Source: a candidate division Zixibacteria bacterium SM23_73_2 (GTDB taxonomy: Bacteria > Zixibacteria > MSB-5A5 > SM23-73-2). Taken from it: 34,837 nucleotides of DNA. How positions within the stretch are numbered: the first letter of the stretch is position 1; every line of letters starts with the position of its first letter. The notes under the pieces are model-generated. The model searched no databases and was not told the origin of the DNA. It saw only the letters and a program-made list of their open reading frames with translations. The DNA lies in NCBI GenBank assembly GCA_001304315.1, contig LJUW01000009.1, forward strand, positions 1 through 34,837. Reading direction: 5' to 3'. Shown here piece by piece: positions 11,074 to 25,787 of the stretch. The position numbers and the translations under genes are program-made.

Positions 11074-11236
11074 GTTAGGTTGTAAGTGATAGGTTGTAGG
11101 TAATTGTATTTGGCGTGTAAAAATCTATTCCAGCTCTTTTTTGGTAACTTAATCTCAGTTAAGACGTTATCTCGCCAATATCCTTTCATACTAAATCCAT
11201 ATATTTATGTGTGAGGTTACTTAATGCACTTTTCTC

Positions 11237-11265
11237 TTGACAAGTGTGGTTGATAAAGCTAGATT
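11237..11265 (+). promoter_or_regulatory. Promoter of the Cys-rich gene pair
   Basis: TTGACA (11237-11242), a 17-nt spacer, then TAGATT (11260-11265). The -35 box and spacing are perfect and the -10 box has four of six consensus bases. The predicted transcript starts near 11272. Confidence 0.65.
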
Positions 11266-11379
11266 AATTCGAAATCATCGGACTGCACCCAAGTTTAGAA
11301 TTAAATCTTTTAAAGAAAAACTTTAGTTTTTCATATATTCATTTGTTCTTTAAAAATATTCAAAAGGAGTTGATCCTAT

Positions 11380-11397
11380 ATGAGAACTTCTTTCTAA
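11380..11397 (+). CDS. Possible leader mini-ORF (MRTSF)
   Basis: An AAAGGAG at 11363-11369 is followed 10 nt later by ATG and only four more sense codons before TAA. It lies inside the predicted 5' leader of the Cys-rich genes. A six-codon ORF with a good ribosome binding site can occur by chance. It is listed because it could act as a leader peptide that couples translation to folding of the downstream 13-nt box. Confidence 0.25.
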   Translation: MRTSF

Positions 11398-11417
11398 TCT
11401 ATCCATCTTAGTCTTAG

Positions 11418-11430
11418 AAGCTCGTTGGGG
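11418..11430 (+). repeat. Leader box L1 (AAGCTCGTTGGGG)
   Basis: First copy of a 13-nt box placed 29 nt upstream of a Cys-rich gene. It is complementary to the trailer boxes at 11780-11792 and 12218-12230 with one G-U pair. Confidence 0.75.
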
Positions 11431-11459
11431 TTTAGATCCAAAAGAAAGGGGTGATACCT

Positions 11460-11738
11460 ATGTTAGGGAGAACCAAAATCATACTTGGCGCATTACTTCT
11501 TTTATTAATCTTTAGTGTAATATACACCGTTACTACCAATAACACCAAGGCGCACATAGGACCTCCAAAGTGTATTCACTGCTACTATTGCGTTGAGGAT
11601 AAAACCTGTCCAGAGGGTGTGGCCTATGTTCGATTCAACTGCTGCGTTAATCCTCCCTATAATTGTCCGGCATCACCAGATGGCTGCCTTTATCTCCAAA
11701 AACTCGGTTGCGGCTGTGGAGTACCTGGTGTAGATTGA
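11460..11738 (+). CDS. Small secreted or membrane-anchored Cys-rich protein, paralogue 1
   Basis: 92 residues of unknown function. The N-terminus is a signal peptide or membrane anchor: basic MLGRTK, then about 20 hydrophobic residues, then polar TTNNTKA. The mature part of roughly 60 residues has 10 Cys, with CIHCYYC, a CC pair, two proline-rich spacers and the end LGCGCGVPG. I chose the ATG at 11460 over the upstream GTG at 11451 because the ribosome binding site AAGGGG fits it and because MLGRTKII then aligns with MSRETKII of the next gene. The two proteins share the motif order YCxxC / AYxRxxC / CP / GC / GCGCGxPG. Such a pattern suggests a disulfide-rich or metal-binding secreted product. 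No modification enzyme, protease or exporter gene is adjacent, so a RiPP precursor is only a speculation. Confidence 0.75.
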   Translation: MLGRTKIILGALLLLLIFSVIYTVTTNNTKAHIGPPKCIHCYYCVEDKTCPEGVAYVRFNCCVNPPYNCPASPDGCLYLQKLGCGCGVPGVD

Positions 11739-11779
11739 TAGTAACTATTAACGACAGAAAGCATTAATCCAACGCTTGT

Positions 11780-11792
11780 CCCCAGCGAGCTT
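11780..11792 (+). repeat. Trailer box T1 (CCCCAGCGAGCTT)
   Basis: 13-nt box about 40 nt after the stop of paralogue 1. It is the exact reverse complement of the leader box at 11841-11853 (48-nt AT-rich loop) and pairs with L1 at 11418 through one G-U. The flanking bases (ATTAA, CCA and GCTT before, TTTT after) are also shared with T2. Confidence 0.8.
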
Positions 11793-11840
11793 GGTTTTGA
11801 AATAAAATGAAATATTAATATGAATATTCTATTATACCAA

Positions 11841-11853
11841 AAGCTCGCTGGGG
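11841..11853 (+). repeat. Leader box L2 (AAGCTCGCTGGGG)
   Basis: Second leader box, 32 nt before the ATG of paralogue 2. Similarity to L1 continues beyond the box: an A/T segment, AAAAGA, then the ribosome binding site AGGGGTGA-like sequence. Confidence 0.8.
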
Positions 11854-11885
11854 ATTATATTTAAAAGAGAGGGGGTGAGAAGATT

Positions 11886-12179
11886 ATGTCAAGGGAAACA
11901 AAGATAATATTTGTGGGATCGATGCTTTTATTAGCTTTTATTATGGTATTAACTCTGACCACAACAAAAACCAGAGCTGATTGGAAACAACCGGGTGTGG
12001 AGTACTGTTACTTCTGTATAAGTGATTGTAACCATTGTAGCAATCAACCAAATTGTGAAGCGTATATTAGATGTGAGTGCTGGGTAGGTTCTCAGGGTTG
12101 TCCAAGTTCACATACAGATCCTGGTTGCCACAATTGCACACTCATGGGTTGTGGTTGTGGAGATCCTGGAGGTCAATAA
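11886..12179 (+). CDS. Small secreted or membrane-anchored Cys-rich protein, paralogue 2
   Basis: 97 residues, unknown function, a diverged tandem duplicate of the gene at 11460. MSRETK is followed by a hydrophobic stretch (about residues 7-26), then TTTKTRA before a probable signal-peptidase site at ADW. The mature part has 12 Cys: CYFC, DCNHC, NC, CEC, GCP, GCHNC and the end MGCGCGDPGG. The ribosome binding site is GAGGGGGTGA, 8 nt before the ATG. Two Cys more than the first copy, and quite different spacer residues with a conserved Cys framework, suggest diversifying evolution of a disulfide or metal scaffold. The Cys-rich part does not match any family I know well. The layout is only loosely reminiscent of small secreted NVEALA-like proteins of Bacteroidetes. 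Confidence 0.75.
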   Translation: MSRETKIIFVGSMLLLAFIMVLTLTTTKTRADWKQPGVEYCYFCISDCNHCSNQPNCEAYIRCECWVGSQGCPSSHTDPGCHNCTLMGCGCGDPGGQ

Positions 12180-12217
12180 TAAAAAAGAATAATTCATATT
12201 ATTAACCAGATGCTTCT

Positions 12218-12230
12218 CCCCAGCGAGCTT
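12218..12230 (+). repeat. Trailer box T2 (CCCCAGCGAGCTT)
   Basis: Identical to T1 over all 13 nt, placed about 38 nt after the stop of paralogue 2. It can pair perfectly with L2, so each Cys-rich gene is bounded by an inverted pair of 13-nt boxes. Confidence 0.8.
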
Positions 12231-12312
12231 GATTTTTAAAAAGTAAATATTATAGGAAGTAATGATTTTACATAAAAAGAAGATAACCAGTTTAGTTAAA
12301 TATTTTTAACTT

Positions 12313-12342
12313 TTAATCAGGGGTAGGGGCACCCCTGACTAA
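12313..12342 (+). repeat. Short palindromic element, TCAGGGGT type
   Basis: Stem TCAGGGGT (12317-12324) / ACCCCTGA (12331-12338), loop AGGGGC, bordered by TTAA and CTAA. A near copy is at 13073-13095. Confidence 0.65.
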
Positions 12343-12364: not shown

Positions 12365-12387
12365 GTTCGGGGTACCCTTATCCGAAC
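12365..12387 (+). repeat. Short palindromic element, GTTCGG type
   Basis: GTTCGG (12365-12370) pairs with CCGAAC (12382-12387) and encloses GGTACCC. It begins with GTTAG like the neighbouring elements, but the stem is different. Confidence 0.45.
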
Positions 12388-25232: not shown

Positions 25233-25787
25233 ATGAGAAAAAGATTGGTTTTCGTGATCCTATCCTTGATCATAGCCGGGATATTTCTGTATGGGTGTTA
25301 CACTATTTTAACCCATCCCACGGTGGAGGGGGAGGAGGATGTGACATATTCCGGCAATTATTACCGGGAGAATTGCACCGACTGTCATTACGATTACCAT
25401 AACTACCCTTATGGATATTACTATGGCTATTACCCTGATTATTACTGGCACCAACCTCGCTGGGGACATTATTATAACTATCCCTGGTGGTGGGACTGGT
25501 ACCGGGGGGATTATTTCTGGTACGGTGATGACGATGGTGGTTACCAGCCTGAGGAGGTTGAAAAAGGCGAAAGGAGGAGAAGTGAGGAAAGCCTGGCACC
25601 TCCATATATTGGTGGAGGTGGAGTTGTGACTCCGGTGATTACTGAACCTAAGTCAAAGGAATCTGAAAGGGTGATAAAGAAGGTGCTTAAAACAGGCAAG
25701 GAAGTAAAGCAGGAAGAGAAAAAGGAGGAACCCGTACCCGTAAAGGAGAAAAAGAAGGAAGAAAAACCACCTAAAAGGAGAAAATAG
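25233..25787 (+). CDS. Tyr/Trp-rich lipoprotein with one CxxCH motif
   Basis: 184 residues. A signal peptide ends in the lipobox LYGC with C22 as likely lipidated residue, so the protein should be anchored at the membrane facing the periplasm or cell surface. C48-T-D-C51-H52 is a CxxCH motif of the c-type haem kind. Residues 53-105 are extraordinarily rich in Tyr, Trp, His, Gly and Asp (for example YGYYYGYYPDYYWHQ and YPWWWDWYRGDYFWYG). The last 75 residues are charged and Lys/Glu/Pro-rich with low complexity. Composition suggests a disordered, perhaps surface-exposed chain; haem binding through a single CxxCH is possible but unproven. GGAGGTG lies before the ATG. It is followed 17 nt later by a FadL-type barrel gene, with which it is probably co-transcribed. 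Confidence 0.75.
   Translation: MRKRLVFVILSLIIAGIFLYGCYTILTHPTVEGEEDVTYSGNYYRENCTDCHYDYHNYPYGYYYGYYPDYYWHQPRWGHYYNYPWWWDWYRGDYFWYGDDDGGYQPEEVEKGERRRSEESLAPPYIGGGGVVTPVITEPKSKESERVIKKVLKTGKEVKQEEKKEEPVPVKEKKKEEKPPKRRK

Follow-up and report, generated by a model that had tools for sequence, protein, structure and literature searches.

What are the two short, cysteine-rich proteins encoded side by side in this stretch of Zixibacteria DNA, and how did their genes come to be there? The window (the whole stretch analysed, 34,837 nucleotides) is contig C17 of the SM23_73_2 assembly (2.26 Mb, 123 contigs), and the pair occupies positions 11,237-12,230, a span that opens with the TTGACA -35 box and closes where a repeated 3′ element ends. 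Both open reading frames are present as originally predicted: cys1 (forward strand, 11,460-11,738) encodes a 92-residue protein, P0001, with a signal helix at about residues 4-31 and 10 Cys among the 61 residues of the mature part; and cys2 (forward strand, 11,886-12,179) encodes a 97-residue protein, P0002, with a signal helix at about residues 3-32 and 12 Cys among 66 mature residues. Each gene has a strong Shine-Dalgarno (SD) sequence (AAAGGGGTGAT for cys1, GAGGGGGTGAG for cys2), and each product opens with one or two charged residues, continues with a roughly 20-residue hydrophobic helix, and then has a T-[KR]-A site; both are predicted to be exported. The two proteins share 41% identity over their full length and a common Cys framework; its AYxRxxC, CP, GC, and GCGCGxPG elements are as originally described, while the first element, given as YCxxC, reads more exactly C-Y-[YF]-C. 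AlphaFold2 gives both the same layout, a helix to residue 31-32 followed by three strands (pLDDT 75 and 77; pTM 0.49), and searches of the PDB by fold and by sequence returned no significant match. Elsewhere in the window (25,233-25,787) there is a 184-residue lipoprotein-like protein, very rich in Tyr, Trp, and Gly, that carries a CTDCH (CxxCH) motif and matches nothing in Pfam.

The original prediction that the pair belongs to no known family is borne out, since Pfam, NCBIfam, PHROGs, and PADLOC yielded no profile match above threshold, in line with the PDB result; Rfam gave nothing but sub-threshold microRNA matches. There is no copy in the same genome beyond cys1 and cys2, and one convincing homologue among 97 relatives: the gene L003 (protein P0003) on contig LJVD01000057.1 of candidate division Zixibacteria SM1_73 (G009), which belongs to the same order and another family. 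P0003 aligns in frame with P0001 and P0002 and keeps part of the framework (GCPAS is retained, GCGCGxPG is gone), with 8 Cys in its mature part; the three members thus span 92-98 residues, with mature Cys-rich parts of 61-67. A profile built from the three sequences recovered the same three genes and no others among 133 Zixibacteria genomes (2 of the 133), and a profile restricted to the signal region again singled them out in the phylum (next best E-value 0.005). Protein searches of the genome contig collection and of viral contigs found no match, nor did tblastn against plasmids and phages. We also searched with a DNA pattern for the unit (CTCGNTGGGGN{7,13}AAAAGANAGGG), which was not found in viral contigs and gave five matches in the genome contig collection; of these, one, in the SM1_73 contig, comes with the 3′ arm described below, and the other four, which lack it, we judged to be chance. 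The original prediction had anticipated numerous relatives that share the Cys order and vary in copy number; this was not borne out, with three genes in two of the phylum's 133 genomes and no match in the viral, plasmid, or phage collections. Still, a homologue exists, its reading frame shows no decay, and no known fold matches; these sequences point to a real family of secreted Cys-rich proteins, undescribed and very rare rather than broad, with three members found. Its reach is small at three genes in two genomes, unless metagenomes hold many more.

The best reading of the proteins is that they are exported, Cys-rich domains which form disulfides or bind metal, with both the export and the state of the thiols predicted from sequence. 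Such a high Cys load is notable in exported proteins of this order: none of its 11 genomes matched the DsbB (PF02600) or VKOR (PF07884) profiles (control profiles matched), which speaks against efficient disulfide formation. Obligate anaerobes tend toward excluding Cys from exported proteins, and in some such organisms DsbA-like proteins alone suffice for disulfides (PMC12453122). A thiol protein that is exported and binds metal or an Fe-S cluster, in the manner of a metallothionein or a ferredoxin, would be a more specific form of the explanation that we prefer, and we regard it as less likely than not. The lack of DsbB and VKOR matches in the order agrees with it, as do the many Cys at CxxC or CxC spacing and a weak match of P0001 to Fer4_6 (PF12837); but that match is sub-threshold (16.1 bits against a cut-off of 25), P0002 and P0003 have none, there are no adjacent metal-transport genes, and the mature Cys count varies from 8 to 12, being even in all three members (8, 10, and 12), as disulfides would give.

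The genomic setting suggests that the pair was acquired. A congener (G001, 98% complete) shares the gene order malE-cobO-DUF3795-trxB-lipA-MATE-HDAC, yet its cobO-DUF3795 gap measures 467 bp, against 1427 bp in the window, and contains no Cys gene; the alignment of the flanking DNA stops at about 11,130 and resumes at about 12,310, and the stretch absent from the congener is approximately 11,130-12,297. Since G001 keeps the gene order without the pair, we consider the pair an accessory unit of rare occurrence, probably gained by horizontal transfer. In SM1_73 the context is different, with L003 flanked on one side by the gene for an ABC permease and on the other by that for a metallo-beta-lactamase-fold hydrolase. 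A congener of SM1_73 (G005), in whose genome no family member was found, has this permease (87% identical), and the homology ends 3 nt past the stop codon; a palindromic repeat comes 28 nt later, as opposed to about 784 nt in SM1_73. This second case is weaker because the G005 contig ends about 40 nt further on and its palindrome belongs to a dispersed repeat. The simplest reading would be gain in both genomes at different sites, with loss as the alternative. Several repeats were seen near these sites: REP-like palindromes (TCAGGGGTAGGGGCACCCCTGA and GTTCGGGGTA) adjoin the unit in the window at 12,318-12,340, 12,365-12,374, and 13,075 and also occur in the G001 gap (L027); a palindrome of another kind (CCCGCCTTTGGCGGG) lies beside L003; and an imperfect 14-nt tandem repeat (TAGGTTGTAAGTGA) is found 3′ of cobO at 11,076-11,103 and has expanded in G001 to many TAGGTNGTAGG-like units.

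A disulfide-rich secreted toxin or bacteriocin-like factor, directed against competitors, was the favourite of the original prediction. The proteins are small, exported, and Cys-rich, the genes are patchy and in tandem, and the spacers have indeed diverged, as that prediction held, and so has the Cys number. The pattern of substitutions does not follow the rest of the argument: dN is below dS in every pair of the three members with finite dS, which gives no hint of the diversifying selection that an arms-race toxin would be expected to show; the comparison points to purifying rather than diversifying selection, although dS is near saturation and the power is low. As had been noted for modification and export genes near the pair, no immunity, processing, or export gene is apparent beside the unit, in the window or at L003; the searches above matched the proteins to no family, and the order has no recognisable DsbB or VKOR. 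A toxin role is possible but unsupported, and on balance we think it unlikely.

The conserved unit extends well beyond the coding sequences. A promoter-like site (TTGACA-17-TAGATT, forward strand, 11,237-11,265) precedes cys1, and homology with the region upstream of L003 starts just 5′ of it and continues through the 5′ leader of cys1 (forward strand, 11,266-11,417); the leader homology scores 62, against a mean of 30 (sd 5) for 300 dinucleotide shuffles, none of which scored as high. The leader may contain a five-codon open reading frame, MRTSF* (forward strand, 11,380-11,397, behind AAAAGGAG), a weak candidate read from the sequence; the L003 leader has MKSMG* (1421-1438) at the matching position. 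No leader similar to that of cys1 precedes cys2, so a single promoter for the pair, as originally proposed, is plausible, with the promoter and leader of cys1 homologous to those of L003 and nothing comparable before cys2.

All three genes are bracketed by one inverted repeat of 13-14 nt, and these conserved complementary arms are a new observation, overlooked in the earlier reading. The 5′ arm lies about 30 nt upstream of the ATG and reads AAGCTCGYTGGGG in the window and TGGCTCGCTGGGG at L003; for cys1 it is AAGCTCGTTGGGG at 11,418-11,430, and for cys2 AAGCTCGCTGGGGA at 11,841-11,854. The 3′ arm, TCCCCAGCGAGCTT, lies 21-40 nt downstream of the stop codon: that of cys1 (11,779-11,792) is inside a weak terminator-like hairpin at 11,774-11,790, and that of cys2 (12,217-12,230) is followed by a T-rich tail (all four arms are given on the forward strand). 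The 3′ arm is invariant, at 14 of 14 positions in the three genes (n = 3), and the 5′ arms share 77-92% identity; for the other segments the values are 40-60% (spacer), 62-68% (signal coding sequence), 58-64% (mature coding sequence), and 57-67% (3′ UTR). Within its own genome the 13-mer arm is confined to this locus, and in the genomes of the order exact 14-mer arms occur at these genes only. The leader homology upstream of the arm indicates that the conserved unit consists of promoter, leader, arm, open reading frame, arm, and T-rich tail; cys2, which lacks the leader, resembles a tandem duplicate of the portion running from arm to arm.

Inverted repeats of 11-14 nt around every ribosome-binding site and open reading frame could also act on DNA, as sites at which recombination inverts or swaps cassettes (ribosome-binding site plus open reading frame, with no promoter) next to a single expression site, or as terminal repeats of a small mobile cassette, a reading consistent with the lack before cys2 of the promoter and leader common to cys1 and L003 and with presence or absence of the unit between congeners. 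The homology between cys1 and L003, however, extends some 180 nt past the 5′ arm on its upstream side; the conserved unit therefore does not end at the arms, and we rejected them as transposon ends. No recombinase or transposase gene, moreover, is apparent anywhere in the window or closer than about 10 kb to L003, and other genomes of the order contain no solo exact arms. All the differences between arms fall on the 5′ side, where two of three still allow a G-U pair in the mRNA and the third lies at the end of the helix. A role of the arms in DNA is for these reasons distinctly unlikely.

We consider it most likely that the arms pair in the mRNA. Folding predicts arm pairing of about 0.9-1.0 in three of three units; when both genes are on one transcript, the cys1 3′ arm is predicted to pair with the cys2 5′ arm, and the outermost arms with each other. 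Long helices between UTRs are not unusual in this AT-rich DNA, and control genes in the window form UTR-UTR helices of up to 15 pairs (-34 kcal/mol), so helix length alone is not exceptional; the case for pairing is that two elements complementary to each other are both conserved across n = 3 sequences. The 5′ arm sits some 10 nt ahead of the SD and does not pair with it, and the predicted SD exposure with and without the 3′ arm (0.15/0.16, 0.50/0.44, and 0.67/0.34 in the three units) shows no consistent change, so occlusion of the hok/aapA kind is unsupported by the folding; the putative effect that we prefer is stabilisation of the mRNA or its end-to-end closure. A very unlikely reading is a type I toxin-antitoxin-like locus, in which a membrane-active peptide would be made from an mRNA silenced by long-distance 5′/3′ pairing: a 3′-terminal element complementary to the 5′ UTR, a hydrophobic helix, tandem copies, and patchiness speak for it, but the proteins have 92-98 residues with a large Cys-rich exported part where a toxin of under about 60 residues is expected, the arm pairs upstream of the SD rather than with it, removing the 3′ arm brings no consistent rise in predicted SD exposure, and no conserved antisense promoter was seen (an antisense promoter-like site at 11,881-11,854 is one among many consensus matches).

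Our preferred explanation, to which we give an even chance, is an accessory unit, probably of horizontal origin, encoding exported Cys-rich mini-proteins, whose mRNAs are closed by pairing of the arms; in-frame homologues, the common signal region and Cys-rich tails, the even Cys numbers, the concordant models, the conserved arms with their predicted pairing, absence from the congener's locus, and the other context in SM1_73 support it. The neighbouring genes suggest no function for the unit. On this explanation, cys1 would be transcribed from the TTGACA promoter through the leader, with cys2, its diverged tandem copy, on the same transcript. The 5′ arm before the ribosome-binding site is computed to pair with the complementary arm near the 3′ end; the message would thereby be closed end to end, and closure would probably set mRNA stability or translation. 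The signal peptide or anchor, about 31 residues long with a putative signal peptidase I site after T-K-A or T-R-A, would take the 61-66-residue domain across the inner membrane, where the domain, modelled as three beta strands, may be held by disulfides or bound metal. A stronger version seems to us very unlikely: a novel, self-contained type of accessory unit that moves with its own promoter, leader, gene for an exported Cys-rich mini-protein, and terminator, with 5′/3′ arm pairing closing each mRNA and controlling an exported effector, in bacteria that lack the usual disulfide-oxidase pathway. The conserved 5′ and 3′ arms around each gene offer a concrete, testable RNA feature.

Among known systems, Fer4_6 (PF12837) resembles P0001 in its CxxCxxC cluster, and differs in that the score is below the cut-off, both homologues lack the match, and the protein is predicted to be exported. 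The hok and aapA type I toxin mRNAs are silenced by a long-distance interaction between their 5′ and 3′ ends (PMC6733600). Like them, the unit has a 3′-end element complementary to the 5′ UTR that is predicted to close the message, a small membrane-directed protein, and multiple copies; unlike them, its protein is larger, Cys-rich, and exported, its arm lies upstream of the SD, it has no identified antitoxin RNA, and folding does not predict an effect on SD exposure. A third comparison is with small secreted Cys-rich precursors of bacteria that have a conserved leader and a variable tail, such as the NVEALA-type proteins of Bacteroidales. Although the pair has no NVEALA-type motif and no Pfam or NCBIfam match to such families, it shares with these precursors a conserved signal region, a divergent Cys-rich tail, short length, and tandem copies.
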